Assembly: GCA_001692895.1 (NCBI GenBank)
Contig: KV748176.1
Location: 5,237,092 to 5,301,091 of the forward strand
Direction: 5' to 3'
From: Cenococcum geophilum 1.58
Lineage: Eukaryota; Ascomycota; Dothideomycetes; Gloniales; Gloniaceae
DNA length: 64,000 bases
Positions 4,876-62,576 of this stretch are shown here, in pieces (the stretch's first letter is position 1; the number at the start of each line of letters is the position of its first letter). Below the pieces are notes generated by a model, which searched no databases, was not told the DNA's origin, and was given only the letters and a program-made list of their open reading frames with translations. The position numbers and the translations under genes were made by a program.

Positions 4876-4930
4876 TAGTGCGACTTAGCCACCCTCTTTG
4901 CTAGTAGGGGCGAGCTTAAAGTATTTTACC
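4876..4930 (+). repeat. Solo copy of the inverted-repeat sequence of the HET units
   Basis: This stretch matches the terminal inverted repeats at 55.9 and 62.0 kb almost base for base, from AGTGCG through CCACCCTC, CTAGTAGGGGCGAG and TAAAGTATTTTAC. Differences are mainly C/T or G/A. Its orientation is that of the left repeat at 55.9 kb. No partner repeat is visible nearby, so it is a remnant or a hit-and-run footprint. Confidence 0.7.
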
Positions 4931-33994: not shown

Positions 33995-36900
33995 GGCGTT
34001 TTACGCGGTAACTACTAAATCCTAGATGTAGCGTACTACGACCACCAAATTATGGACGCCTTTGCACCATAACTACCAAATTATAGACGCCTTTATACCG
34101 CGACTACTAAATTATAAATATGCTGAAAATTAGAGCCGCTACTTACGGCTGACGTGGCAATTACCGCCTCTTTTGGCTAAGTATATTTAAATCCAAATCC
34201 ATAGCTTTAATATAGTTGTTATCCCTTAATTAAAAATTGAATAAGCTAGTAATTATAAATAAGGATTAAAATCTATAAGTAAGTATTGAAGTAATATTAA
34301 GTTATAACTAAATCTGGCGCCTAGGATAAAACTCTATAACGTCTAGAAAACACCAATCGATACCAGTTAAAGACATAGTTAGATAGCTGCTATTAAGTAA
34401 GAAAGGTTACATGAAAACAAGCCGCTGCCTTACTTCTAAGTAGTCGACTTAAAAGAGACAATTTACGTTAGAGGTAAGTGATCCTAGGAACGGGGACTGT
34501 TCCTCTAAATATATCGGTATATAATAAGTCCCGCTTAACCCTTCTTATAAGTTAGGCATAAGGCTAAGTTCTATTAATAGTTGCCTTATACGTATAAGAG
34601 CTGTCTACCTTTTTAAGTGCACTATTAGGCTGACTTATGTTTTAAGTATATATATACGGAGTGGACGCAATAATAGATTTGGTGCTTTTTAGTTATTAAG
34701 CCTCCGTTATACTAATACCCTAAATTTACTAGACACACTAGAACTAAAACAAGGTTAGTAATATATATATAGCTAGATAATTATAAAATACTAAGCTAAT
34801 TACTAGAAAATGCTATTCTAAACGGTAATAAATAACTCTGCCGCGAATGTTTTCCAGTAGTTAGATATAATGCGTTAGGTAGTTATATACCTAGTATATA
34901 GTAATAAGAACTAAGAGTATATTGCTGAATGTGTAGCATATAGGGAGCGCCTTATTGTTAGATAAATAAAAGCTTTATTAGGGTATGGGTTGTTTCTTAA
35001 TTAAATTTTGCTCTCGTTTACGTGTTTAGTTTTCCGGTTCTCTTAGCATTAGTAAGGCAACTAGCCCTAAATTTAAATCGCGTTATGTAAAGGTTAAGAT
35101 TTTCTCTAAGTTAAAGATATAAGCTCTTTTGCCCTTAAAGTCTATAGATATTAGGAGGAGTGGTCGCTAGACCTATCCGATAAGAACTCTACTAGTCTTG
35201 TCTTACAGCTTCTATAAGATTAAGGTATTATAGTCCTTAAAGGTGCAACCAATGCTATTCTAAAGTGGCTGTAAATTAACGAGAATAAGGTTATGCTGGT
35301 TTTTTTTCCTTTGAGGAAAAAGAGCTCTGCTTGCTAATACCTTTAAAGTTTATAAATGCCCTTATTAGTTCTGCTAGGGATAGTAGTTTTTAAGTCTTAT
35401 ACGTTAAAGAATACGATTTCCCTTAATATGCCCTACTTATAATTGGACGATTACTAGATTAGAAATAGCTAGCTAATAATAACGATATTATTGCTATCGG
35501 TTGCTATTATCTTAGAGGAGACACTAATTAGAGATGGATTGTGTAGTATGACCTAGCCCTTTAAAAGGAAGAGACTAATAAAATGTCTATTATTGAAGTA
35601 TGCGGAGGGGATATGTGAGTAATCGCGCCTACCGATTGAGCTAGCTCTTATTAAAATTAGTGTTATTTATAATGGGTAGCTAAGACGATTAAGTCCAACT
35701 CCTATAATTAGAGAAGGGAAAGCAATGGTAATTTATTATATGTGGAATGGGAATAAGCCCACTTAATAGGTAGTAAGACGCAACTAGTTTGCGTTATTTA
35801 AGATATATTTTATCTAATCTCTTTACTAAGAGTCCTAAAGCTGTAACTAGTAACCTTAGCCCGCTCTAAATATAGCGGCGTAAGGTTCCATCCTAAATTT
35901 AAAAATCCCCTTGCTATAACCCCTAGGTTTACCTGCCGGAAACTCTATATATAGAGCTATATATCCGAAATCCCTTTTAGTACTATTTCTACTAAACCTA
36001 CCCATAGCGGCACTTGGTAACCCTAACTTAAAGTCCCTTCTAGCTTTAGGTTTAATAGAAAAATTGGTTTATAGATCTATAGTAAATCCGAAGCCCTCTT
36101 TAGCAGCGCTCGGTACTATAGAGAACTTAAACACCCTTTTACCTTCTAGTACTTTAGGTTTAATTGCACGTGGCGTAGTACTTAGTGCTATAGCGAATTC
36201 AAAGTCTCCTCCTATAAAAGACGTTGGGATAGGTATCTAAGTGCTGTCTTCGGCTTTTGAAGTTAAGGGGCCTATTTTAGCGCTTGGAGAAATAGATTCT
36301 CCTTAGCCACCGCCATTAAAGCTAGGTTTTGGCGAGTCTGTATAAGGCGTATAAATAGTAGAGTTTTCCGTTTATTTTATTTAATTACTAGCCTCCGCCG
36401 GTTGCGAGTCTATATCTCCATAAGCATTTCTAAAATAATATAATTTTGTGACGTACTCTTCTTAATATATATTATAAATGGCGTGAATATTTAAGTCCGC
36501 GATAAAGCTTTTATATTATAAACTTTCCGCTTATATTAAAGAAGACTAGTAGGAGAGTTAAATTAGTGGCTATACGGCAGATACGTATCCTAGTTAAAAT
36601 AACACTTTAGAATCTTATGTCTAAACCCCTCTAAAGTTTTAATATACTTATAATATAAATCTAGACGCTAGTAATTTTTGTTATAATCTTTAATAGGATA
36701 AACCTACTTTCCTTTTATCTTTAGGGGTTAAAAATGTTTAGCTCCTATATAATGCTTAAGGGCGAGAATATAACCGGTAATGGCCTTGATAAAGGCGGCT
36801 TCGTCCACTTATATTATAGGCGATAGCCTAAATATCTCCTCTAAAACACTAACTTATATAGTAAGATCTTTATACAATATAAATGAACGGTATTATAGGT

Positions 36901-38175
36901 CGGCATCTTTTCTCTTTAACGGATAACGATGTTTAGCATGTTGGGGGTGAGGTAGAGATATTTTTACGGATGCATTTATTATATAAATTAGTTTCTTTAT
37001 AAATATTAGTATATATACCGTCTGTAGCGTATAAAGAGCTACTTACCGCTATCCTATTTAAAAGCTATTAGATATATTTAACGGACGGGCGGTTAGTAGA
37101 ACGTTATAAGTATATATGCTAAGGTTTACCTAGCCTATATCTAAGGTCTTATTATCTAAGGGCTGTTTTAAAGTAAGTTTTATTTGGGCCGGATATATAT
37201 AATAACTATTACTTATTACTAGGTTTGGAACATATTAAATGCTTTATTAGAGATAGTTTGGTTTCTCTACCTTAAATGCTTATTTATAGTGTATTTACAA
37301 AGAAGAGAATTATATACGCCTTTTGCTAGCAATACGCAGCCCCCTTCGCGTTTGTTAAATCATTTCCTCCTTTGCCTTCTTATGCATATTTAAGTAAGCC
37401 TCTTAGTTTAATGTGTATTTATAGTTACCTAGAAGAAATTCTTATATGAGCTTCTTAGGCCTCTGTATAGACCTATAGAGGTATACTATAGTTTTTATTA
37501 AGCCTATATTCACTATAACAGAAAATTAGTTATATATTAATAGCTTAAGTGTTTGCTCTTATATTGCGACAACATTTACTAGATATCTTTTTTGCGTCTC
37601 CTAGTATTTTGTGCACTAAGCTCTTATAGTATAGCGGAGATAAGTATACTTATAGTAAACCTAGGTATAATTATATATTACTAGTAGCAAATAGAAGGGA
37701 ATAGATATTAAAAGATATTAAATAATAGCAATAAATTTGAGCATTTTATTCTTAAATAAAAAGGATTACTGATTAAAAGAGCGTATATTGCTTTAAGTGT
37801 TAGAAAAGCAGGGTACCTAAGATCCCCGTTACTACTAAAGAGTGCTAGGGATTAATAAAGTATTTACGCAGGAGCTTATATCACGTAACACTATATAGGG
37901 CCCTCTAGACAAACACTAGATAAGCAATAAGTACATCCCCTTTACTATCTCAAGCTACCAGGATCTATTACTAATACTATTAAATCTAGTACGCATGTTA
38001 TAATTGGATTAGATCTTAATGTAGGGCTCTTTATACTAGTGCTTACAGTATAGAGCGTCTATAATTTGGTAGTCCTAGTGCGGAAGTGTTTATAATTTAG
38101 TGGTTGTAATATAAAGGTGTCTATAATTTGGCGGTTGCGGTGCGAAGGCGTTTAGGATTTAGTAGTTACTATAAG
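33995..38175. mobile_element. 4.2-kb DNA element with inverted, internally repeated ends
   Basis: The left end (34005-34120) contains three to four head-to-tail ~33-bp units of the form ACYACCAAATTATRGACGCCTTTRCACC. The right end (38040-38165) holds the same units in reverse complement, ending in ATTTAGTAGTTAC, which pairs with GTAACTACTAAAT at the left. Inverted arrays of subterminal repeats are typical of hAT, MULE and related cut-and-paste elements, where transposase binds them. Exact termini and a target-site duplication were not resolved. The interior holds coding-like frames on the minus strand but no recognised transposase. Confidence 0.65.
35860..36360 (-). pseudogene. Low-complexity frame inside the 4.2-kb element
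   Basis: A minus-strand frame is readable for about 160 codons with few interruptions. It repeats motifs such as K-x-F-K-F or G-F-G-F-T and Pro/Ser-rich spacers (for example KVLEGKRVFKFSIVPSAA). It resembles a low-complexity structural or linker segment. No family is recognised, and it may be part of the element's own protein. Confidence 0.35.
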
Positions 38176-45545: not shown

Positions 45546-45819
45546 ACTACTTATCCGCCTTATGTAATTCGTAGGCTAGTACTTAACCGATAGCGGCAAG
45601 CCTATAACAGTTCTTTATTCCAATACTATAGCTACCTACTTTCTCTACTTTCTTTATTCTTAACCTTAAAAAGTAGGGCGTTATAACCCCTATAGCTAGA
45701 GCGGGTCGGCTAACCTCCCTACTAGCGTAGGCAAACTATAGAAGCCTTTAAGTCTTTAGCGCACTAGCGACGCTATTAGTGGCCCTAAACACTAAGAGAA
45801 GAAAACTTAGGGTAGCTTA

Positions 45820-46128
45820 CGGAGGTCCCTAATAAAAGTTCTTATACCTTCCTAATTAGGAAGTTTTAGGAATAATAATACTTATTATAGCTTTCTATAT
45901 TTTTATATATTATCTTACTAAGTATAAATTAAAAATATAATAGGGAATTTTTATTATATATAGTATTAGGCTAGTAAATTAATATTTAAAGTTTGCGTGC
46001 CTTAATATACGCTATATAGACTCTAGTATATACTACATAGACTGTAAAATACGCACCTATACTTGCGTATACGTTAGTTTAAAACTTCCTAATTAGGAAG
46101 GTACAAGAACTTTTATTAGGGACCTCCG
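45820..46128. mobile_element. 309-bp MITE with TA target duplication (Tc1/mariner type)
   Basis: The two ends are inverted copies of about 50 bp: CGGAGGTCCCTAATAAAAGT and onward at the left, and its reverse complement ACTTTTATTAGGGACCTCCG at the right. Each arm holds its own palindrome, CTTCCTAATTAGGAAG. The element is flanked by TA on both sides (45818-45819 and 46129-46130), the duplication expected of Tc1/mariner transposition. The interior is AT-rich and non-coding. It sits about 150 bp upstream of the HNWD start codon and inside the larger inverted-repeat unit, so it inserted later or moved with it. Confidence 0.85.
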
Positions 46129-48557
46129 TAGTTGCCCTACATTATTTTACTTATCCCCGCCCCCTAAACCATTTCCTAACATCTAACAGCTAATATCGTT
46201 GCGCTTGCTTAACGTAAGTTATTATATACTTATCTTTATACTTTCCAATACTCTCTAATAGACTTATTAGTATAATGCGTCTTCTAAAATCTAAAGATAA
46301 TGGCGACTTTAGCCTAATTAAGTTTGTTAATAATAAGATACCGTAATATGCTATCCTTTCGCATACTTAGGGAGTAGATAACGAGGAGGTTACTTTTAAA
46401 GATATAATAAAAGGTACAGGCAAAAGCAAAGCTAGCTATATAAAGATCCGATTTTGCGAAAAGCAAGCTACTAAGAACGGTCTTCTATACTTCTAGGTTA
46501 ATACTTACTATATTAACAAATTAAGTAGCGCTAAGCTTATAGAAGCTATTAACTCTATATTTCGCTTATACCAGGACGCGGCTAAGTGCTATATATATTT
46601 GTCTGACGTTTTAGACAATGGTTCCGTTAGAGAGAACCAGTTCTCCTAAAGATAGAAACCGGCATTCTAGAAAAGCAGATAGTTTACTTATAGTTAGACG
46701 CTTTAAGAGCTTATTACACCAGCATTAGTTGAATTTTTCTCTAAGGAGGAAACGCGGCTTAGTAATAAGCAATTACTAAAACAAACTCTCCACAAAATAA
46801 TAGGAATCGCCATCTAGGCCCTTTAAAAAAGGCCTTTGTCTTATTTTAGTATAAATAAGCGCATATTATGGGCAGTAAAACGCCAGACAAAACGCGAAGA
46901 AGACGCAGTATACTCTCTACTAGGTATTTTTAACATTTATATGCCGCTTATCTACAGTAAAGGGCGGTAGAAGGCGTTAGATCGACTCTATAAAGAGATT
47001 AAAAATAATAACTTAATTAACCTACCAATCGCGAAAGGAGCGTCCTTTAATTTTTATATAGAAGAATATAATTCAAGATGTCTTAGCAATATACAAGTTA
47101 AGCTACTAAGTTAAATAACGGAATAGGCGAAGGATAGAAACGGTAAACCTATATTCTAGCTAAACGGTATAGCGGGCACTAGAAAGTCTACAATTATACG
47201 GACTATTACCCAGTCATTTGCCGACTAATGCTAATTAGGAGCTAGCTTCTTTTTTAAGAAAGGCAAGGGAGAGCGCGGTAACGCTATATAATTCTTTACC
47301 ACCATTGCTATAGATCTAATGGGTTATGCACCGGGAATAAGATTAGGCATTAGGAAGACAATTAATACTAACCTAGCTATTTCCAAAAAGGCTCTAAAAG
47401 ACCAGTTTAAGAAATTAATCTTTTAGCCGCTCTTAGAAGCGGAACCTCTTTAAGCTTTAGAATTAGTTATCGTAATAGACGCGTTAGACAAGTGCGAGCG
47501 AGACGAAGATATATAAGCAATTCTCAAACTTCTTTTACAAACTAAGGGTCTTAAGCTAGTGTCGTTACGGATCTTTATAACAAGCAGACCAGAGCTCCCC
47601 ATTTGTCTTAGCTTTAAGAAGATATTAAACAGAATATACTAGGACCTAATTCTTTACAATATACTAAAGGAAACGATTAAATACAACATAGCTCTCTTCT
47701 TAGAGCATAAGCTCAAGGTAGTATAAGAGCAGCGTTTACTATCCCTAAGCTAGCCTAGTAAGGACTAAATCCAGGCGCTAGTCAAGCTGGCTGTCCTATT
47801 GTTTATCTTTACTACTATAGCCTATTAATATATCGGAGATTAGCGAGATAATCCTAAAGAGCGCTTAGCTATTATACTTTAATATTAAACGGCATACTAT
47901 ATTTTAAAGCTTAATAGGACGTACCTCCCTATTCTAAACCAGTTATTTAATAATAAAGACGAAGTAGATAAGCAAAGGCGGATTATTAAATTTAGAGAAA
48001 TAGTTAGGAGTATCGTTATCTTAGAGAGTCCTCTCTCTATAACTTTACTTATATACCTCCTCTAGATATCTAAAGAGGATATTATATATAGGCTAGACTC
48101 ACTATATTCTATTCTTAGTATCTCTATTAACGAGGATATACCTATAAGGCTCCTACACCTTTCTTTTTATAACTTCCTCGTTAATCCTAAAAAGCGTAGA
48201 AAGAGTCTATACTAGGTAGATAGGAAAGAAACGCATAAAACGCTAGCTAGTAAGTGTCTTTAACTAATATCTAGCTTAAAGGGTCTAAAGCAAAATATAT
48301 ACAACCTCCCAATGCCTAAAACTTTAAAAAGCGAGATTGATAAATAGAGTATAGCGGACTATCTACCACCTAAAGTCCAATATGCCTGCTAATATTAGGT
48401 ATACCACTTAAGGCAGAGCTAAAGCTATATCTATAACGACGATACAGTATATAAGTTTCTGTAGAAGTTCTTTCTCTGCTAGCTAAAAGCTATAAGCCTT
48501 ATTAGAGAAGTATTAGAAGGCATTTATATAATTAATAGCTTACAATTACTTATACAC

Positions 48558-48622
48558 GTAAGACATTTCTTAGTTACTCTATTAGTTACGATACTTTATA
48601 TTTACTTATTACATAATTAGAG
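48558..48622 (+). other. Probable 65-bp intron in the HNWD pseudogene
   Basis: Begins GTAAGA and ends TTAGAG. It is supported by phase and by protein match: SLQLLIH before it joins QSAKIF then LRNIKRFILRN after it, the usual linker text upstream of the WD40 domain. An acceptor two bases earlier (TTAG) would put the downstream part out of phase. Confidence 0.75.
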
Positions 48623-48833
48623 CAAAGCGCTAAGATATTTAGCTTTCTTCGTAATATAAAGCGCTTTATTCTAAGAAATTAAACGATACTTAAAAACGCA
48701 CCTCTATAACTATACTCTTTAGCTCTTATCTTTGCTTTAGAGATGAGCCTAATATAGAAAAAATTTAATAAGTATATTCCAGGTTAGATTAACAGGCTAT
48801 TAAAAGTAGAAAAGGATTGGAACGCTTGCCATA

Positions 48834-50290
48834 GCACGCTTAAAGGCCATTTAGACTCCGTCTACGCAGTTGCCTTCTCGCCAGACAGCCAGCTAGTAGC
48901 GTCAGCGTCGTAGAATAAGACCGTCTAGCTATAGGAGGCGGCAATAGGGTCTTACTACAGCACGCTTAAAGGCCATTTAGGCCCTATTAACGCGATCGCC
49001 TTCTCGCCGGACAGCTAGCTAGTAGCATTAGCGTTATAGAACAAGACCGTCTAGCTATAGGAGGCGGCGATAGGGTCTTGCCGCAGCATACTTAAAGGCC
49101 ATTTAAGACTCGTCTATACGGTTGCCTTCTCGCTAGATGGCTAGCTAGTAGCGTTAGCATTAGGGGATAATACCGTCCGGCTATAGAAGGCGGCGATAGG
49201 GTCTTACCATAGCACGCTTAAAGGCCATTTAAGACCCGTTAACGCGGTTACCTTCTCGCCGGATAGCTAGCTAGTAGCGTTAGCGTTATATAATAATACC
49301 GTCTAGCTATAGGAGGCGGCAATAGGGTCTTACCGCAGCACGCTTAAAGGCTATTTAAGACTTATCTACGCGGTTGCCTTTTTGCTAGATAGCTAATTAG
49401 TAGCGTCAGCGTTATAGGATAAGACCGTCCAGCTATAGGAGGCGGCAATAAGGTCTTACCGCAGCACGCTTAAAGGCTATTTAAGCTCCGTTTACGCGAT
49501 CGCCTTCTTACTAAACGGCTAGCTAGTAGCGTTAGCGTTATATAACAACACCGTCTGGCTATAGGAGGCGGCGATAAGGTCTTACCGCAGTACGCTTAAA
49601 GGCTATTTGGGCCCTATTAACGCGATTACCTTCTTACCAGACAGCTAGCTAGTAGCGTTAGCATTAGGGGATAATACCATCCGGCTATAGGAGGCGGCGA
49701 CGGGGTCTTACTATAGTACGCTTAAAGGCTATTTAAGCTTTATCTACGCGGTCGCCTTCTCGCTAGATAGCTAGCTAGTAGTGTTAGCGTTAAGGGACAA
49801 GACCGTCCGGCTATAGAAGGCGGTAATAGGGTCTTACCGCAGCACGCTTAAAGGCTATTTAAGCTTTATTTACGCGGTCGCCTTCTCGCCAGATAGCTAG
49901 CTAGTAGCGTTAGCGTTATATAATAATACCGTCCGGCTATAGAAGGCGGCGATGGGGTCTTACCATAGCACGCTTAAAGGCTATTTAAGCTCTATTTACG
50001 CGGTCGCCTTCTTGCCAAACGGCCAGCTAGTAGCGTTAGTATTAAGGGATAACACCGTCCGGCTGTAGGAGGCGGCGACAGGGTTTTGCCGCAGCACGCT
50101 TAAAGGCCATTTAGGCTCCGTTAACGCGGTTACCTTCTTACTAAACAGCTAGCTGGTAGCGTTAGCGTTATATAACAACCCCATCCAGCTATAAGAGGCG
50201 GTAACAGTGTCTTACCATAGCACGCTTAAAGGCTATTTGGGCCACGTTAACGCGGTCACTTTTTTACTAGACGGCTAGTATTTAGAGATA
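48834..50290 (+). repeat. Twelve 126-bp WD40 units
   Basis: Units start at about 48834 and recur every 126 bp to 50220, each with CACGCTTAAAGGCYATTTA and ending in GAGGCGGCGATAGGGTCTTAC. The period is exactly 42 codons. The units are highly alike, as in HNWD genes where the array is kept uniform by concerted evolution. Codons just after GHL, the Y/N before A-V/I, and the pair before K/N-T-V vary most. The array ends cleanly in the C-terminal domain. Confidence 0.95.
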
Positions 50291-50763
50291 GATAGAGGAC
50301 AAATCCCTCTTTTTATCTCTCTTCCTAATACTCCTTCCTATTAGAGAAAAGAATACCCTACTATCTTTGTAATAGAACCTTAAGTATTTCTTAAAGAACA
50401 ATATCTACTTTAGCTCCCTCCTAAATATTAACTAACCTATATAGCTGTTTATAGGGATATAATATACTTTAGGTATATATCTGGCTATATTGCCTTTTTT
50501 AAAATTTATTTAGAAAACCTATTTTAGTAATAGTAATATTATATATATATTTTTCTATAATCTCTATTTTATAAAGGGGTCTAGGGAATAATATAAATTT
50601 ATATTATAATAAGGTAGGTTTTATTAGTTCCGTCCTAGTCTTATAGCTAGCCTTTAAAGACTTTAAAGATTTCTATAAAACGTAATAATATACATAGTAA
50701 AGATTCTTGCCCCTTTACTACGCTAGTAGGGAGGGCGGCCGACCCGCTCTAGCTATACCCTTA

Positions 50764-51870
50764 TTAAGGTGGCGTTTCCTAGATATTAGCAGTTAAAGCT
50801 TTAGCGCAATTATTATGTAGGGTGTTATCCATTTAACTAAAGCCTCTTTCCTTAGCTAAAGAAAGGTGGCCGCTATAAAGTCGGCCGCTATAATTATGGG
50901 AGGTAGGTTTATCTAGGATTTTAAATATACGGCCTAGAGCGATCGTTATTAATAATAGTTATTAATAGAGCTATTGCCCTACAAGGCTGGGTCTGCCTTT
51001 TATTACTTAAAATATTTAGGCGGTTAATAAGCTAAGACCTATATCTCTACAGGTGACTTTATTCTACTACCTTTTACTTATATACGCAAGTGCAGTATCC
51101 ACCTTTAAACTATAATCTCCTTACTTATAACAAACCGACTCAAGGCATACCGATTAATACTATTAATGCTAAGATAGAAAATATATACCTTCTTTACTTC
51201 CCCCTTCGCGTTTAATTTTTATAACTAATATAGCTATTATAGGAAATTACGATCCTTTAATATAATGTCTGCTTTAAGCTTAACTAGCTCTTAGATATAA
51301 ATCTAAAGTATTCCTAGCTAATCTATAATTAGGCGCTTATGCTTTCCACAGCTATTAATTCTATAGCTATATACTATGTTACTATTAGAGACTTATTTAA
51401 AGAAGATTTATAGAATTATAATAGTAATTTCATCGATTTTAGTAAGCTCCTTTTAGCTTTTAGCTTATCCCCTTTACCTATAGGTAAGCTAGCTAAACAG
51501 ACCAAGGCAAGCACTGCTAATTAGTTTTCCTCTTATAACGGTGATTTAATGCCATCTTAAGGCGTCAACACGACCCCCTAAAAGTCTCCCGCGCCTTCTC
51601 TTTAACACCCTTTATCCTATATAGAAAACTAGTTCCCCTTTATAACTATAAACTTATTAATCTAAAGTACGGAGATATTATAGCAAAGTCTTAGTAGTTA
51701 ACCCTATAATTATACGGATAACTAAAAAGGAGAGAAAGAACAGTTACTGTCTTAGGTAGACGAGCAACACTATAAAGAGCCTCAATAATTAATTAACTAT
51801 AATCTTTAATATATAAGGCAGGACGACTAAACATAGGCGCGTAAAGAGGGGCAGGATAAGGTAGAGTTGG
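50764..51870. other. Stretch without a recognised gene
   Basis: AT-rich sequence right of the HNWD unit. Some coding-like pieces occur on both strands but none could be named. Confidence 0.35.
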
Positions 51871-51879
51871 ATAATATTT

Positions 51880-52890
51880 ACGGACGGGATAACGTAATAA
51901 AAGAAGTTAGATGCGATCCTAAACCGTAAAGCAAAACATACTAAAGAGAAGAAGCATAATTACCTATAAATAAAAAGCAACTATAGCAAGCTAAGCCTAT
52001 TAAAATACCAAATATAGCAATTACCAGGTCTAGAAGGACGATATTAAAGCGGCTTCGGAGTAAATGAAAAGTTAACAATTAACACTCCCGTAAGGTTAAG
52101 AGGCTATAAAAACAAACTCTAAAGGAGATTCCACCCATTTATAACTGCAAATTTCCGTTAATAGAGATATATTAAACCTTTACTAACTATAGCTTATTGG
52201 ACAATTCTAATAGGCTCTAGCTCCTTACTCGCTTATTCTTTACGGTTACTAGCTAGGACGCTTTTATACAGCTACAGAATTCCTATCTTACTATTTAAGA
52301 GAGTATAAGTATAGTTATTCTTTCTTTTAGTAATATAGTATCCGTAAATATAGAGTCTCTGGATTAATTAGATATCTTACTTACTACAGCTTTTATTATA
52401 AAGCGATTCCACCTAATTAGATTGGTGGAAGCTCGCACGCGGCTAGAATAGAATTACTGGCTTTAACCGGTCTAGTAGACTAGACGTTAGCGGAATAAAG
52501 AGCGAATATCGGAACTAGGTCACTGCGGCTAGGCTGCTTCCCGCACTTTAGACGATATACTATCCTAGGCGTATCCTAAACTTATAAGGTATATAGTTAA
52601 GTATAATAAACAACTAACTACCCTAAAAAATAAACTTAGTTAGGGACGCAACTAGCACATACTAGCAGCTCAATTTGGTACTGGTATCCTTGCTTTAGTC
52701 CCAACTAATAGTGATTTTAGTATCTACGACCGCGAGTAAGCTTCCTTCCTGCTAGCAGAATCTACACTAGGCTAACTTCCTATAGTATTAAAAGACTTCT
52801 AGTAGATGATTTTAAATTGCTTATTAATATTTTAGATAAAGAACGTAGTGGTTTTCTTTATAAATGCAGCTAATAGATGACTTACTTTCT
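51880..52890 (+). pseudogene. Unassigned Gln/Arg/Leu-rich protein
   Basis: From about 52230 to 52870 one plus-strand frame reads well when TAA/TAG are taken as Gln: segments like RLVEARTRLEQNYWLQP, then LGHCGQAASRTLDDILSQ, then LVPTNSDFSIYDREQASFLL. The composition is helical and charged with Gln-rich stretches. I do not recognise the family. The part upstream of 52230 is less clear. Confidence 0.38.
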
Positions 52891-53499
52891 TAATCTCCTT
52901 TTAGGACTAATTCTAGAGAGAAAATATATGCTTAAGGATATGGATGGATCCCTCGTAAAGGAGGAGCTATTTAACTCGCTAGGTTTAATAGAATACCTAA
53001 AACTAGATAGGTAAATATTGGCGTAGATTTTTGCAGTATATAGGGATGTGTGTCAATTATATACATAGATTATTATAACTAAAAAGCTTAATATAGCTCT
53101 TACTATGTATATTTATAAACTTTACGTAAAGATAAATTTAATAGGTATTGTATTTAGGTTTAGGGCTTCTAGGAGGCTCTTAATCCTAAAAAAACTAATC
53201 TTAATTACCTATTCCTACCTTTATTTTTTAGTATAATCACTATAGAGGAACTATAAACAGTGTAAATAGTAGTAAAAGAATAAAAGATTAGAGACATGGT
53301 AAAGTGTAAGGCTTCGCACGCCTAAGGTAATACTAAGCTAGGTGCCTATACTACGCTACACCGCGCATAGGGCCGGGATGATAAAATATGCACCTTACTC
53401 CTTATAATAAGCAATGACTAAGGGAGCACCCAACTGACCTAAAAAAGTCTTTTATTTGACGCCTAAAATTAGGTACTTGATTTTTAAGGTCTACTCAAT

Positions 53500-53960
53500 C
53501 CCCCGAACCTCCTTAACATCATCACCTCCTCTCTAGCGCTCGGCCCCGAGTTAGGCAGCAATGCTAATTATTTAAGCGACAGGAAATTCTATTATAACTT
53601 TTTACTCCGCCTAATTACTTTTATAGTATTTTAAGTCCGAATAAATCTAGAATATCTTCTCGATGGGCATTCTCGTCTTGTCTTTACGCTTGCTCTAGTT
53701 ACTCTTATTTATATCGGCCCCGATCTTAATATAGCGCTTAACGGCCTTATTTCTAGTCTAACCACTATACTTAATAAGAAAGGGAATAAGCCTCGCCATT
53801 TTGCTATAACGTATAGTCTTATAAATATTACGATACTACTTAATTACTTCGAGCCTGGCGAGGACATACATCTCCAACTTCTATAATTGCGCCTCTAAAG
53901 TAGTATACTTATAGCACACACTCTTAAAGATATAAAACTCTTAGGGCGTATTAACGACTA
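53500..53960 (-). pseudogene. Ankyrin-repeat-like fragment
   Basis: On the minus strand the frame reads LEVIK-*-YRNIYKTIRYSK, then ARLIPFLIKYSG, then NKAVKRYIKIGADINKSN near 53740-53700. The A-V-x-x-Y-I-x-x-G-A-D-I-N end is the classical ankyrin helix-2/turn signature, and the upstream part has the spacing of an F-box or degenerate first repeat. Only one clear repeat is visible, so this is a fragment or an over-read chance match. Confidence 0.42.
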
Positions 53961-53964
53961 ACTA

Positions 53965-55450
53965 AAAGCAATCTATAAATACTAACTAAAGCTAGAGGTT
54001 CCTTTTAGATATATTAAAGACTGGCGCGGATATAGACCTAGAGATCACCCTATTTATATATAAATAGTAAACGCTAGTACCTCCTAGAATGTCTGGCAAG
54101 AATTTAAAGCCGCTATAAGTACTCTTAATTAAAGGCTCCTCTAATGGACATTTAGCTAATAATACTAAGTTAAAAAAGAACCGTTTAAAGCCTAAGAAGG
54201 GGAAATGTCTATTAGAGGCAGAAGATATTAGCCAGAATAATATAATAAAGCGTTAATTATAGACACACAGTAATTTAAGAGATGGAGTTAAGAAATAATA
54301 TTCTTAAGTTTTTCTGTCTAAGGCTAGAGGAATTTAAAAAGAGACTAAGGTTTTATTTAACTTAGCTATATTTATAACTATAAATAAAGAGTGCTATATT
54401 AGGCACTTCTAACTTTAAAAGGCTTATTATATCAATTCCGGCGTCCTATACTCTAAATCACAGCTATATATACCCTATAATGTCCTTATATTCCAGACAT
54501 TATTTAGATTATTTTCCGTATACTATACGCCGTTTTATCTAGCCGTATTATACTTATACGTGCACTTATTAGAGTAAAAGTAACTATAACTATACGAGAG
54601 TGTTTTCTAAACACATATAGTATGCCTTTAGAGACGAGTTAGCTGCTTTCTATAGATAGTAAGAAACGATCTTATAAATTTAAGGCAGAATGCTAGCTTT
54701 TTATAGGAATTTATAGTTTTATAGCCTTTTACGAAGTAATATTTCTTAAAGCTGTTAGTATAGAACAGAGCTAAGGAAAGTGGACTTTAGTAGGTATATA
54801 AACTATTAATACTTATCTCTACTTAAATAAGGCTAGATTTATGCATATTAGTACAGATATATTAGCAGTAAAGATGTATAAAAATAGCTGCATACAGTAA
54901 GAAAATGCACTTAGATATTTAAACTATTCCATTTTAAGGTGCCTACAATAAGGCTCTAAGATATTAAGTAATAGCCTTACAGGTATTACTAACCGGTAAA
55001 CATGGATCCTTTTATATCTCAGACATTAATATCTAGTAATGCTACCTATAAGTCAATATCCAAAACGCAGCGAAAGTAATAGTATCCTATAAATAAAATG
55101 AAGCAGGGGCGCTAAGCAGGCCATTCCACTATAGGCTTAGTGGGGGCATCCCAAGAGGATATTTTCCTATAGATGCCTCCGCTAAGAGGATAGTGCCTAA
55201 AATATACCTCTAAGCGAGCTCATATAGCATAAACTGCTAATTTAGTAGCGAGATAATAAATATATACGCTCTGGATACTGCCCTTTATCTAGCTCTTTTA
55301 CCTATCGCTATAAAGCCTTTATTTATACAGAAGCTTAAAAGCGCTCTACTTTAGTGCAGCTAAGTAAGCATATAAACAACAAGTTAATTCCTCCTACCAT
55401 TATAGTTATATCTGTCTAACTGGCATTATTAGCTAGTACCTCTTCCCCGC
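53965..55450. other. Stretch without a recognised gene
   Basis: Degraded, AT-rich, no motif seen on either strand. Confidence 0.35.
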
Positions 55451-55454
55451 CGGA

Positions 55455-55830
55455 GGCTATGTACTATATCTTATCCTTAACAAACCTAAATAGCGACTCG
55501 TCTTACCTAAGCCGACGCTCTATCTTATTATATTCCCCTTATATAAGCTAAAAGGATGTCTATGGATTTTAATTACTGTGTCTCTAAGAAGCGCGATAAC
55601 TCAGGGAGCTTAGGTAAAGGCTTTCTCGTCAGTTAGCGGATGCGTTAAAGGCGCGCCTACAAAGCTTAAAGGTAGTATAATATGCTGAGATTCTTTTAGA
55701 GGAGGCTGCAATGTAAATATAGCCGTATGTTATGGTATAAGATGGGCTGTATCCCAAAGTTAAACGGTGGTTATTTTAAGGACTGGTTGGGGTTTCGGCA
55801 TAGTTTAGTTGACTTAGCAACCGCGCCAAG
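55455..55830. repeat. Diverged block shared with 45172-45545
   Basis: Second copy of the ~375-bp block described at 45172. This copy is slightly less mutated (for example AGCCGACGCTCTATC and GCGCGCCTACAAAGCTT). It stands about 70 bp left of the left inverted repeat of the HET unit, the same relative place as the other copy. Confidence 0.65.
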
Positions 55831-56378
55831 CTAAACGCCGAGCAGCATCACCACTATAACGCCATACTTAAAACAACTATAGTTCCCTAGGAAGTAGACC
55901 CTTAATAAGGGTCTAGTTAGTGCGGCTCGGCCACCCTCCTTGCTAGCGGGGGCGAGTTTAAAGTATTTTACGCTTTAATTACCTGCTGTAAATACCGCTA
56001 ATTATACTACCGCTAAACCCATCCTATACTAAGTTAAAGTGTAAGCGTTATAGCAAAACCACTCTAACTCACCTTAGGTAACAGTCTTGGCGGTAAGCTT
56101 TACCTAGAATAGTTAAACGCCATGCTTAGACGGCTACATAAGGATAGTGTGCCATTATAGCCTACCACGATGCTCCGTATAGTAAAGTATCTCGTATAGA
56201 TCGGTTTATCTCTTTAGTCGCCCTAGCTCTAACTAAGCACCTCTACTATAGTAAGAAGCGCTAAACTATTAATAATATTATAAGTAGATAAAGCTAATAT
56301 ATAGACTATACCTTATAATTTAAAATTTAAATCAATGTATGTGTCGGTTACTCTACCAGATTTTTAATGCGAAGTCGT

Positions 56379-58052
56379 TTATATAACTCGCACATTAAAC
56401 CTCTATCTCACTACGTAGTCACTCTAAATCAACCCAACTCTAACCCTCTTATACTCGCCATCCACACTAGTTGGCCTAACAACTAATATATAGTACTCTT
56501 CCCTATCCAATCTATCCCCATCCTCGCTATCCCTATCCTCGCTATCCCAATCCTCACTATCCTAATCCTCGCTAGACTTCTTCCTAACGACAACATATCG
56601 TTCCTTAAAAAGATCCTCGTCCTCCTTAACATCATATTATATCCATCCTCTTTTCGTTCTGCCGAAATCCAAGATTGCATAATATTTCCCATCCAGTTTC
56701 ATTATACAATCCCGAAACTCCCCTACGTTAGTAATTAGTACAAGTTCGCGCCCCTTATTAAACCGGAGGTTATTAATCCAATTAACTATGCTAAAAGGGA
56801 TATTTATAAACTAAATGCCTCCATTATATACCATCCATAACCACAATAGCACATTTCGGTTTTTATACACAATCCGCTCCATCTTATTATCAAATATCTG
56901 CCATAGGAGATTCCTATAAAGGTACTTCTAAAAGATGCCGTATCTACTTTAATACCTTAGAGCGCCTGTAATACAGGCCTCTAACCCCAATATTACAGCA
57001 GATCTATTAGTCTTCTCTATAAGGTCGCGCTTTAAGTAGTCCTTAAAAAGAAAGTAAATAAATTCCATAGTACGTCGGTAGCCTAACTTAAGGAGCCGGT
57101 TCGGGAAGTTTAGATTAAGCATAAAGAACTTCCTTTAAATTAAGCTAAAGAGCAAAATATCTAAGTAAGGAAGATGTCGGTTTATCAGATATTGCTTAAG
57201 CTCTTACCTTTTTAGTATAGTAAGGTTTTCGCAGTAAACCCCTTCACTACATTCCCAGTATATCTAATTGTTACTAAAATGGATAGTTCGTTATAACAAA
57301 ACCCTTTCTTATATTACCTATGCTCGCGTATTAAGCTAAGCCTTCTCCATATCGTTGTTAAAATTATCTATACTAGTGCAGATATAGAATCGCCTGCCTA
57401 AAGCATCTTAAACAAGGATATACTTAGTGCTTACGTTTCGCTTAAGGAATCCCACTTTTAAATAGACAGCCGAAGCTACAGCAATTATACAGTAAGCCAA
57501 AGAGAAGACCTTTTCTATACGCCCAGATTCGAGTTTCCAATCTTCTTTATTGTCCTCATATTAGATTATACAGAGTAAGTCGATCTAGAGGTATAGTACG
57601 CGAAGTTCTTAAGTCACTTTAACAGCGTCCTAGAAAGTCTTTAGTAGGTTAGAGATACTAAATCCTCCTAGCTATTAGATAATGTTATCTTAGGTTATAC
57701 AAAATTATTTCTTATCTTTAATTAAAAGTCTGCCCTAGTAATAGGATAAAGTAATATATTTTCCTCCGTCTATTTACGTAGCATAATTAAGACATAAGAC
57801 ATTAGGATTATAATCAGGATCATCCAGATTACCAACGTAGAGGAGTCTTATCGGCAATTCTGTGTTAGATTTAACATAATACTTATTACAGTCGTGGGAC
57901 TTATTACACTAATAAAGCTATGCGTAAAGTAGTATAAATTATATAGGACTTTCGGCTTCGGGTAAGACTGGGAAGCTAATCTAGATGTCGTTATTAGGAT
58001 TAGCTAAATATTCTATGCGCAAAGATATACAATAAGTAATGGCCCAGCGCAT
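56379..58052 (-). pseudogene. HET-domain incompatibility protein, complete but RIP-inactivated
   Basis: From an ATG at 58052 to a TAA at 56379 there are exactly 558 codons in one frame without an intron or net indel. The HET domain (Pfam HET family) is clear: NTELPIRLLYVG, then KYITLSYY-*-G (LSHCWG with three C/G transitions), then LRVLYL-*-IDLLCII-*-YEDN, then EDWKLESGRIEKVFSLAYCI and IAVASA. Downstream come TRAWVIQERVL-type text and YWECSEG, then the long C-terminal half ending in YYILVVRPTSVDG and RVGLI-*-SDYVVR. An acidic repeat DSED/DWDSED occurs near 56560. HET-domain proteins mediate cell death after fusion of unlike hyphae. The gene lies alone between inverted repeats, with its 5' end toward the minisatellite. 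Confidence 0.92.
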
Positions 58053-58429
58053 ATAAGGAGTTAAAGACACTAACCTGAATTAGAACACAACCGGAGAATA
58101 CGTGGCCCCTCCTCTCCTATTTTTAATTCTAACCCTTTTCTAACTATTTAAATATATAGTTTATTATCATTATAGCAGCGTTTAAGTATATGGAGGAGTA
58201 GAGCGCAGAGCTGATAACTTTTTTCAGCAGTACGGACTTTAGAAAGATTAACGTTGCAGCCAGCAGCTACAATAGTACTGTAGTAGGCATAACACTAAAC
58301 CGGGGCAAGCTGGCTCAGTAGCGTACTAGATGGCAAGCTTTTGACGAAATCCTAAGCAAATGTATTGTCAAAGGTATAAAGCTAGTCGTTAGACTATATC
58401 CGTATTAGTACTAGTTTAAGCAGTCACGT

Positions 58430-61166
58430 ATAAGGGGCATTCGCAGATCTATATACATCCTACACTAACAGATAGAACAATATTAGCAGCAGTAGTATAT
58501 CTCGGTATTCGTAGGTCTACTTATACCCTACACCAACAAATAGAACAAGATTAGCAGAAGCCGTATATTTCGGTATTTATAGGTCTACTTACTAACTATA
58601 CTAATAAACAGGACAAGGTTAGCAGCAGCCGTATATCTCGGTATTTGTAGGTCTACTTATATCCTATACTAATAAACAGAACAAGGTTAGCAGCAGCTAT
58701 ATATTTCGGTATTCGCAGGTCTACTTACTAACTACACCAATAAACAGGATAAGGTTAGCAGTAGCTATATATCTTAGTATTCGTAGGTTTACTTATAGCC
58801 TATACTAACAAACAGGACAAGGTTAGCAGCAGCCGTATATCTCAGTATTCGTAGGTCTACTTATAGCCTACACCAATAAATAGGACAAGGTTAGTAGCAG
58901 CTATATATCTTAGTATTTGTAGGTCTATTTACTTCTTATACTAATAAATAGGACAAGGTTAGCAGCAGCCGTATATCTCGGTATTCGTAGGTCTACTTAT
59001 AGCCTACACCAACAAATAGGATAAGGTTAGTAGCAGCCGTATATCTTGGTATTTATAGGTCTACTTATATACTACACTAATAAATAGGATAAGGTTAGCA
59101 GCAGCTATATATCTTAGTATTTATAGGTCTACTTATAACCTACACTAACAAATAAAATAAGGTTAGCAGCAGCTATATATCTTAGTATTCATAGGTCTAC
59201 TTACTCCCTACACTAATAAATAGAACAAGGTTAGCAGCAGCTATATATCTTAGTATTCGCAGGTCTACTTACTAACTATATTAATAAACAGGATAAGGTT
59301 AGCAGCAGCTATATATCTTAGTATTCGCAGGTCTACTTACAGCCTATATTAATAAGTAGGATAAGGTTAGCAGCAGCTGTATATCTCGGTATTTATAGGT
59401 CTACTTACTCGCTACACCAATAAACAGGACAAGGTTAGCAGTAGCTGTATATCTTAGTATTCGCAGGTCTACTTATAAGCTATACTAATAAATAGGACAA
59501 GGTTAGCAGCAGCTATATATCTCGGTATTCGTAGGTCTACTTACAGCCTACACTAATAAGTAGGATAAGGTTAGCAGAAGCCGTATATCTTGGTATTTAT
59601 AGATCTACTTATAAGCTACACTAATAAGCAGGACAAGGTTAGCAGCAGCTATATATCTCGGTATTCGTAGGTCTACTTATATACTATACTAATAAACAGG
59701 ACAAGGTTAGCAGCAGCCGTATATCTCGGTATTCGCAGGTCTACTTACTTACTACACTAACAAGCAGGACAAGGTTAGCAGTAGTTATATATCGGTATTC
59801 GCAGGTCCACTTACTCACTATACTAATAAGTAGGACAAGGTTAGCAGCAGCTGTATATCTCGGTATTTATAGGTCTACTTATATACTACACCAACAAGCA
59901 GGACAAGGTTAGCAGCAGCTATATATCTTAGTATTCGCAGGTCTACTTATAAGCTATACTAACAAACAGGACAAGGTTAGCAGTAGCTATATATCTTAGT
60001 ATTTATAGGTCTACTTATAGGCTACACTAATAAGCAGGACAAGGTTAGCAGCAGCTATATATCTTAGTATTTATAGGTCTACCTACATCCTACACTAATA
60101 AGTAGGATAAGGTTAGCAGCAGCCGTATATCTCGGTATTTATAGGTCTACTTACTTCCTATACTAATAAGCAGGACAAGGTTAGCAGCAGCTATATATCT
60201 TAGTATTTATAGGTCTACTTACTCCCTACACTAATAAATAGGACAAGGTTAGCAGCAGCCGTATATCTTGGTATTCGCAGGTCTACTTACAGCCTACACT
60301 AATAAGCAGGATAAGATTAGCAGCAGCTATATATCTCGGTATTTATAGGTCTACTTATATCCTATACTAATAAGTAGGATAAGGTTAGCAGCAGCCGTAT
60401 ATCTTGGTATTCGTAGGTCTACTTATATACTATACTAATAAGCAGGACAAGGTTAGCAGTAGCCGTATATCTTGGTATTTGTAGGTCTACTTACTTACTA
60501 CACTAATAAGCAGGACAAAGTTAGCAGCAGCTATATATCTTGGTATTTGCAGGTCTACTTATATCCTATACTAATAAATAGGATAAGGTTAGTAGTAGCT
60601 ATATATCTTAGTATTTATAGGTCTACTTACAGCCTATACTAATAAGTAGGATAAGGTTAGCAGTAGTTATATATCTTGGTATTTGCAGGTCTACTTATAT
60701 ACTACACTAATAAGCAGGACAAAGTTAGCAGCAGCTATATATCTCGGTATTTGTAGGTCTACTTACTTCCTATATATAAGGTTAGCAGCAGCTATATATC
60801 TTAGTATTCGCAGATCTACTTATATACTATACTAATAAACAAGATAAGGTTAGCAGCAGCCGTATATCTTAGTATTTGTAGGTCTACTTATAGCCTATAC
60901 TAATAAGTAGGACAAGGTTAGCAGCAGCCGTATATCTCGGTATTTATAGGTCTACTTATAACCTATACTAACGAACAGAATAAAGTTAGCAGCAGCCATA
61001 TATCTTAGTATTTGCAGGTCTACTTATAAGCTACACTAATAAACAGGATAAGGTTAGCAGCAGCCGTATATTTTAGTATTTATAGGTCTACTTACTTACT
61101 ACACTAATAAACAGGACAGGGTTAGCAGCAGCTATATATCTTAGTATTTGTAGGTCTACTTACTTC
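58430..61166 (+). repeat. 68-bp minisatellite, about forty units
   Basis: Units of the type GGTTAGCAGCAGC-TATATCT-GGTATT-GTAGGTCTACTTA-ACTAATAA-CAGGACAA are arrayed head to tail with an exact 68-bp period (starts at 58617, 58685, 58753, 58821 and so on). One unit near 60770 is truncated. Units differ almost only at C/T and G/A sites, such as CCGTATAT/CTATATAT and TTCGTAGG/TTTATAGG/TTTGCAGG. The period is not a codon multiple and all frames are closed, so it is non-coding. It begins about 380 bp from the HET gene start, so it could lie in or near its promoter. Confidence 0.95.
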
Positions 61167-61169
61167 CTA

Positions 61170-61982
61170 TAACCGAGTATATTAGTAAAATATCTAGAAT
61201 ATACTCTAGGAACATTTACACTCTATACCTACACTATTAGCTAAAATAATATTATCTAGTTGCTGTTAAACCCTACCATAAACAATCTATCCTCCTATAT
61301 ATCTTAACCTATCGGAATAAGTTTAACCGCAGCTAATAGAGATAACAATATATTGCACAAGATTGCGTAAGTTAACTCCCACGCTAATAGCTCTTAACTT
61401 TGGTTGCGCTTTTATACTAGGGTTAAGGGATAATTCTAGGACTGTGTTTGCGAAGGCGGGGCAGTTTAATGCCTTTGAAATTTTTGCTTATTAAAAATAA
61501 GAAGGTGATTCAAAGACTAAAGTCCGCAGTAGGTTCGGCCTAATCTTTCTCCTTAGTTCCGGCCCTTAGCGTCTTTTTATATCACGTGTATAAACACTAT
61601 ACGTATGACGGGCGCATTACCTGCTAAATTCTGCCATATTCTACCACCCTATAATTAGCTCGCCTACTACTAGCGCCTTAGTAGCTCTTAAGCCTTTAAG
61701 CTTATATAGGTGTGCATTAGACCTAAAACTTTGTCGATTTCACTAACTATACTCTTATTAATAGTTTATTGTAAAACCTCTTTCTAAAATTCCAATACTT
61801 TTTAGCGGATTTTGAAGGCTTTATATGAGCCGTAGGCTGGCACCTATATTAAGCTGCTGCCTATATATATTGGTTCTGCAATTATTCTAGACTTAGGTTA
61901 GCTAACCGTTTTCACTATATAAACGTATATTTAAGCGCAAAGCTAAGCCAAATATTTATAAAGGCTCATCAGGACAGGCAGC
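61170..61982. other. Non-coding right arm of the HET unit
   Basis: About 0.8 kb between the minisatellite and the right inverted repeat. Parts (61430-61580) are less AT-rich and keep TG/CA dinucleotides, but I see no gene or motif. Confidence 0.45.
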
Positions 61983-62576
61983 ATAATTAGCGGTATTTAT
62001 AGCAGGTAATTAGAGTGTAAAATACTTTAAGCTCGCCCCTACTAGCAAGGAGGGTGGCCGAGCCGCACTGACTAGACCCTTGTTTAAGAGGCGTTTAATT
62101 TTTAAACGCAAATAAAGGGAGAGGTTAGTGTTTAAACGTACTTTCGCTATAGGATAGTATATGGGGTGGATGCTAAGAGTTTCTAATAGCGGGGTAAATG
62201 CTAGCTAGTACTAGATGGGATCTCCATAAGGGAACTTAGAGTAGAAAATTTATTTCGCGATCCGTAAACGCGTGGCGCGCTCTCTACAGACCGGCTAGCT
62301 TAAGGGACTATAGTTAAGATCCGTTATAAGTAAGCGGGTGCGTTTACTTATCCATTACAGCAGATAAGACAACGCAAATAGTACTAATATAAGGAAATTA
62401 ATAGAGCTTATACTAACTATCTAGTCCTAGTCCTAACTTAAATGTTTTAGAAAGTATTGGCAAGAAAGTTATTATCTTAGGCAGTGCTATTAAACGTACT
62501 AGAATAACTGCTTCTGCTATAAAAGCCTATAACCTTTATTAAGTGCTTTTGATTTTTATATTCGAGAATAAGTATG

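Follow-up and report, generated by a model that had tools for sequence, protein, structure and literature searches.

Elements that carry gene sequence between inverted repeats are known from plants, where the cargo of Pack-MULE and Pack-TIR elements consists of pieces of numerous unrelated genes and insertion leaves target duplications. The units that we describe here in Cenococcum geophilum resemble them in being non-autonomous and in having terminal inverted repeats, host gene sequence and no transposase inside, but their genes are mostly complete and belong to a single functional class, and we saw no target duplication. In fungi, the Starships of the Pezizomycotina are giant mobile elements that are classified by their tyrosine recombinase and carry many cargo genes, with NLR and HET genes as possible cargo (sections of PMC12134995 and PMC9594970). 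The units here differ from Starships: their facing repeats lie 3.7-15 kb apart, their bounds are inverted repeats, and those that were read hold one recognition gene. The hnwd/nwd genes of Podospora are like the genes treated here in their HET-NACHT-WD40 architecture, their near-identical WD40 repeats and their members killed by repeat-induced point mutation (RIP), and one hnwd/nwd pseudogene has a transposon relic ahead of its start; inverted-repeat units are not described in that text, in which the word "inverted" occurs 0 times (PMC1805685). Finally, the C. geophilum genome itself was described as 178 Mb long, with 81% repeats and expanded HET, NACHT and WD40 families, an expansion that two sections of the genome paper present with no link to an inverted-repeat element (PMC5023957). 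A search of the open-licence literature, by title and opening of the abstract, returned no report of inverted-repeat units with fungal HET or NLR genes. NLR and HET genes as Starship cargo and the Cenococcum expansion are thus known from these sources, and what we did not meet in the literature searched is a small inverted-repeat family with several recognition-gene architectures.

Two repeat-bounded pseudogenes

The locus lies in a 64-kb stretch of C. geophilum DNA, hereafter the window. A preliminary description had placed in it two incompatibility genes, an HNWD gene and a HET gene, each inside inverted repeats (units 1 and 2). The features are as follows.

4877..4929, plus strand: solo T2 repeat end, 53 nt, 92% identical to the right end of unit 2
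45641..45690, plus strand: left outer block of unit 1, type D; two repeat-less copies of the left host flank (X) end at 45640
45691..45730, plus strand: left inner inverted repeat of unit 1, type T1, 40 nt, 93% complementary to 50718-50757
45818..46130, no strand: separate nested inverted-repeat element in unit 1, 313 bp, arms of 51 nt at 98%
46272..47003, plus strand: HET-type N-terminal part of the HNWD pseudogene (unit 1), 51% identity to a C21 protein
47130..47588, plus strand: NACHT-like (NPHP3_N) domain of the HNWD pseudogene, Pfam, E 5.7e-21
48794..50137, plus strand: WD40 repeat domain of the HNWD pseudogene, Pfam and tandem repeats
50718..50757, minus strand: right inner inverted repeat of unit 1, type T1, pairs with 45691-45730
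50758..50803, minus strand: right outer block of unit 1, type A; the block recurs at other repeat ends
55904..56011, plus strand: left inverted repeat of unit 2, type T2, 108 nt, 91%
57207..58046, minus strand: matched part of the HET pseudogene of unit 2, 66% identity to a C134 relative
58457..61169, no strand: 68-bp minisatellite in 40 copies, located 5' of the unit 2 HET gene
61977..62084, minus strand: right inverted repeat of unit 2, type T2, pairs with the left T2 repeat

Both repeat pairs were recovered, with 40 nt at 93% and 4987 nt between the inner repeats of unit 1, and 108 nt at 91% and 5965 nt between those of unit 2. The two sets also cross-match over 62 nt at 79%, and the core sequence quoted at the time occurs at three places in the window with at most 3 mismatches and in 0 of 100 shuffles; these shuffles and a reversed-pattern control that gave 0 genome-wide rule out chance repeats. 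The solo copy of the second repeat type reported at 4.9 kb is the T2 end at 4877-4929, for which no partner was seen within the window. At the right edge of unit 1, several repeat-less copies of the host flank (Y) start at 50802-50804, and the outer limits of the unit, as read from such alignments, are probably close to 45641 and 50803. Blocks akin to its left outer block occur at C3, C134, C80 and C31 and at the left end of unit 2. A further inverted repeat pair of different sequence is present in the window at 34034-34118 and 38055-38166, about 4 kb apart, at 78-79%.

The domain classes first assigned to the two genes were borne out by Pfam and homology; the genes themselves turned out to be pseudogenes with internal stops. 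The unit 1 gene combines HET, NACHT and WD40 parts in one gene, which is what defines the HNWD family, the HET part of the window copy being assigned by homology only: Pfam gave no HET match in this gene, and the part is known from its homology to a HET-positive relative. Its WD40 stretch is made of 126-bp tandem units (11.2 copies at 48833-50238). In unit 2, Pfam places a HET domain at 57468-57758 on the minus strand (E 3.1e-8), and about 2.7 kb of the unit is the 68-bp minisatellite. This minisatellite is also found, in about 11 to 66 copies, in the T2 loci L031-L035, L037-L039, L042 and L044, and it lies 5' of the HET gene in the window, L031, L032, L039 and L044. The Pfam scans of these two genes were run on frames with an X placed at each stop. 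Both window genes are pseudogenes because TAG and TAA stops lie inside their aligned parts, 8 TAG and 4 TAA in the HNWD gene and 10 TAG and 10 TAA in the HET gene, and the 64-kb window has no open reading frame of at least 200 aa. The dinucleotide ratios of the window (TA/AT 1.63; (CA+TG)/(AC+GT) 0.52) are the mark of RIP, which is described as a mutation of CpA in PMC1805685, and RIP-type mutation has destroyed both genes. The nested 313-bp element in unit 1 has TA on both sides and looks like a small mariner-type derivative.

A dispersed family of repeat ends and its cargo

The preliminary description had called for a genome-wide search. Across the assembly (177.2 Mb, 162 contigs), a 27-base RIP-tolerant core pattern with at most 2 mismatches occurs at 426 places (211 + 215), facing pairs are present among them, and the reversed pattern occurs at none (0 + 0). 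The T2 end of unit 2, used as a query, gave 86 candidates genome-wide, and all 40 that were scored matched; the T1 end of unit 1 gave 205 candidate places, of which 40 were scored, and many of these matches share only the outer block of unit 1 and the core. On C5, three same-strand ends (658431, 664693 and 670945, all plus) follow one another at steps of about 6.26 kb, perhaps a tandem array of units.

Most of the T2 ends compared are sharp. When both ends of unit 2, each with 1.5 kb of flank, were compared with 28 of the 40 scored T2 ends, the window's own two being excluded, homology to unit 2 stopped within 25 bp of the outer end of the repeat in 24 of the 28; in the remaining four it extended 115 to 1481 bp further. 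The units are thus discrete and repeated, with an inverted repeat at either end, as in non-autonomous DNA transposons with terminal inverted repeats. The repeats have an inner block of type T1, T2 or T3, always with the core, and often an outer block, roughly 45 bp long and of types A to D. In several cases the outer blocks differ between the two ends of one unit, and such mixed ends are unlike simple terminal repeats. Farther out than the A block, the sequence follows one or another of several recurrent longer contexts, and no single terminal base is fixed for the family. The idea that the A-D flanks are pure host sequence was rejected, the A block being a repeat end in unrelated hosts.

What lies between the ends is strongly biased towards recognition genes. 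For the cargo counts we used 100 exact copies of the core, listed from the 426 places, on contigs C1-C37; the repeat-end list omits four host-only entries. Gene matches came from HNWD relatives (91 matches, 77 used, second fragments of one gene being omitted), unit-2-type HET relatives (134, 133 used), Pfam HET (best 150 of 439 candidates scored, 99 on C1-C37 used) and NPHP3_N (best 150 of 318 scored, 103 on C1-C37 used). A HET/NLR match lies within 6 kb on the inner side of 40 of these 100 listed ends and on the outer side of 8, and three of the 8 outside cases (C5, C10 and C20) fall inside another catalogued end. Within 10 kb of the listed ends the figures are 46 inside and 15 outside for HET/NLR matches, against 1 and 3 for hAT/MULE. 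After merging of loci, ends with HET/NLR inside only outnumber those with HET/NLR outside only by 36 to 5 (sign test, p = 8e-7). Counted by locus against the 100 listed ends, the 280 merged HET/NLR loci include 32 that lie inside and 6 that lie only outside; when each locus was moved by 20-150 kb, the mean number inside was 1.76, with a maximum of 7 in 2000 trials. The bias is seen at 6 kb among the listed ends with NPHP3_N (11 inside, 1 outside), HNWD relatives (13 and 3) and unit-2-type HET genes (20 and 4) taken alone; the Pfam HET list alone gives 4 and 0, too few to judge. On a list of 112 merged ends, the end-gene pairs within 6 kb number 11 inside and 2 outside for HNWD, and 26 and 3 for unit-2-type HET. 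In these counts HET/NLR genes are far commoner on the inner than on the outer side of the ends (40 against 8 of 100 listed), and the loci inside far outnumber those under local shift (32 of 280 against 1.76).

The contents of facing pairs agree with these counts. The exact list holds 19 facing pairs at most 20 kb apart (sizes 3.7-15 kb), 12 of which have a HET/NLR match; two of the other seven were read (L036 and L068), and both hold NACHT-like and ankyrin genes, which brings the total to 14 of 19. The unit at C21:641650-647000 (L051, GC 0.51) has HET (E 1.7e-16), NACHT-like and WD40 parts in that order on one strand between its repeats, in separate open frames that cover most of the unit. A HET frame of 292 aa (E 2.1e-28) lies in the T2 unit of C134 (L031), and the HET stretch of unit 2 recurs in eight other loci (L031-L035, L037, L039 and L044), in blocks of 66-92% identity. 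Three further units were chosen solely as repeat pairs and are unmatched by the HNWD, HET and NPHP3_N searches: in C19 (L068), matches to DUF7708, NACHT-like, winged-helix and ankyrin domains share one strand, those to DUF7708 and winged-helix scoring slightly below the Pfam cut-off; the unit at C8:2807-2815 kb (L036) contains pieces of NACHT-like, winged-helix and ankyrin type; and C104 (L067) has TPR repeats and DUF7104, with no NACHT match in the Pfam scan. Long open frames are found near repeat ends at C8:3583895 (783 aa), C1:4670034 (804 aa) and C7:3457728 (827 aa). At L035:7674-7688 (C20) a T1 end and a T2 end meet head to head. L051 carries, at about 162-248, a short insert between its outer and inner repeat blocks with ACGCCACTT at both ends of the insert, and similar sequence recurs at ends on C14, C11 and C7.

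From the inside bias, the contents of facing pairs and the stop of homology at T2 ends, it follows that the units are dispersed, bounded by repeats, mostly of one gene, and of several NLR/HET architectures; in the units looked at, the cargo classes are HET, HET-NACHT-WD40, NACHT-ankyrin and a TPR-type NLR. The units are one route of HET/NLR spread, perhaps among others, since for 248 of the 280 HET/NLR loci the list has no exact core within 6 kb on the inner side; this figure overstates the gap, because the list of exact cores covers 100 of the 426 places.

Transposition or exchange between sites

We consider it fairly likely that both window units belong to a large non-autonomous inverted-repeat family, in which two related terminal repeats surround one recognition gene. 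The inner repeats would be, or would once have been, ends recognised by a transposase supplied in trans; such an enzyme could have spread the one-gene units, which would have multiplied by transposition or by repeat-anchored recombination. The latter might then swap units between duplicated sites, and RIP would mutate the duplicated copies, killing many while some keep long open frames. Of the earlier proposal that non-autonomous elements capture and move recognition genes, the genome-wide family with HET/NLR genes inside is upheld; capture is not, since a single entry of each cargo class, followed by spread along with its unit, may account for the pattern, and the target-site duplications and empty sites that were looked for did not appear. 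No target-site duplication was found in the pairs examined, where the exact outer end is uncertain because the outward reach of similarity varies between copies; this uncertainty could conceal a duplication that is short or palindromic. The little-mutated unit at C1:4666244-4671144, which sits in unrelated flanks, has none either, its longest common word being a 9-mer far from the ends. When the assembly was searched for an empty site of unit 1, none of the 37 matches to the joined flanks spanned the junction. Two other candidates for empty sites were set aside: copies of the C134 left flank at C2, C54, C11 and C36 have only about 150-158 bp in common with that flank, and C134, searched up to 25.4 kb, does not contain the other half; a copy of host Y in L048, a host without the A block, is not a proven empty site, the adjoining sequence matching no compared locus, host X included.

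The search for an enzyme gave a lead at most. As had been stated for the two units, Pfam scans of the unit stretches show no transposase domain, and the DUF3435 domain is likewise absent from the stretches scanned. For hAT, the best 150 of 585 candidates were scored, 90 of them on C1-C37, with one inside and one outside within 6 kb of an exact core; the outside one, at C14:633446, sits inside another end, of type T2. MULE gave 79 genome matches; the 56 on C1-C37 all lie more than 10 kb away from any exact core. Among 144 merged hAT/MULE loci, one is inside against a mean of 0.38 under local shift. Neither hAT nor MULE transposases are enriched at the repeat ends, hAT being within chance, and no autonomous relative with the same ends was found among these two families, which were the ones sought. 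Fragments of the hAT dimerisation domain at C37:1380940 and C14:633446 lie 1.6-2 kb inside the ends C37:1379081 and C14:635057; these two fragments are a lead for an enzyme, though at chance level.

The flanks of unit 1 hint at another process. Its X|Y flanks are met again at C3 (89-90% on each side, over about 1.5 kb) and at C8:1532185-1542312 (94-95% over the queried flanks), and they enclose different contents: unit 1 holds the HNWD gene, the C3 site a T2 unit with HET, and the C8 site another repeat-ended stretch whose HET relative has 39% identity. When unit 1 is compared with the C3 site, the sequence on either side changes where the inner repeat begins. Three different units in one flank pair suggest exchange between sites. 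The pattern favours unit exchange between related sites, or a very strict target choice, because the contents differ, the change falls at the inner repeat, and none of the 37 matches crosses the junction. At C45:259901-276981, a 16.8-kb repeat pair has a copy of flank Y of unit 1 at either side, the two copies being oppositely oriented.

One may then ask whether transposition is needed at all. The inner repeats could serve as homology for ectopic recombination or gene conversion that swaps recognition genes among related sites, transposition being long past or absent; the three X|Y sites with their different contents, the switch at the inner repeat on both sides, the lack of a unit-less X|Y site among the 37 joined-flank matches and the mixed outer blocks at the ends of single units all speak for such cassette exchange. 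We nevertheless find it unlikely as a full account: exchange at fixed sites leaves unexplained the unit at C1:4666244-4671144 and many T2 ends that lie in unrelated flanks, and 426 core copies require an amplifying step. Segmental duplication alone, by which genes in AT-rich, repeat-dense regions would be copied with their surroundings while the repeats are older and unrelated, could account for the left flank of unit 2, 90% like that of C80 over 1.5 kb, and for the likeness between the flanks of unit 1 and C3; it is very improbable, as in 24 of the 28 T2 ends the match to unit 2 is gone less than 25 bp beyond the repeat, and the inside/outside asymmetry and local-shift control also oppose it. 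Hardly more probable is a target preference, in which a generic element inserts beside recognition genes or such genes better tolerate insertions. Transposon-related and HET/NACHT/WD40 families are indeed both expanded in Cenococcum, according to sections of PMC5023957, but in C21 and C19 one gene takes up most of the space between facing repeats, and counts inside the ends far exceed those outside. The family of non-autonomous units thus remains our preferred reading, with points against it, namely the missing target duplication, the 0 of 37 junction matches, the mixed outer blocks A-D and the lack of a linked transposase family.

A possible route for recognition-gene turnover

As many related inverted repeats bracket single recognition genes, these genes look spread as small packages. 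A bolder version, which we put forward tentatively and regard as possible if rather doubtful, is a dedicated allorecognition cassette system, in which multi-copy sites and common inner repeats would swap whole HET/NLR genes of differing architecture, RIP would prune the duplicates, and the repertoire would be reshuffled gene by gene. How fungal NLR/HET repertoires expand and are renewed is an open question, for which small repeat-bounded units give a concrete and testable route. This route places genes that RIP should destroy in the duplicated fraction of the genome, and under it individual recognition genes are expected to be present in some strains and absent from others.
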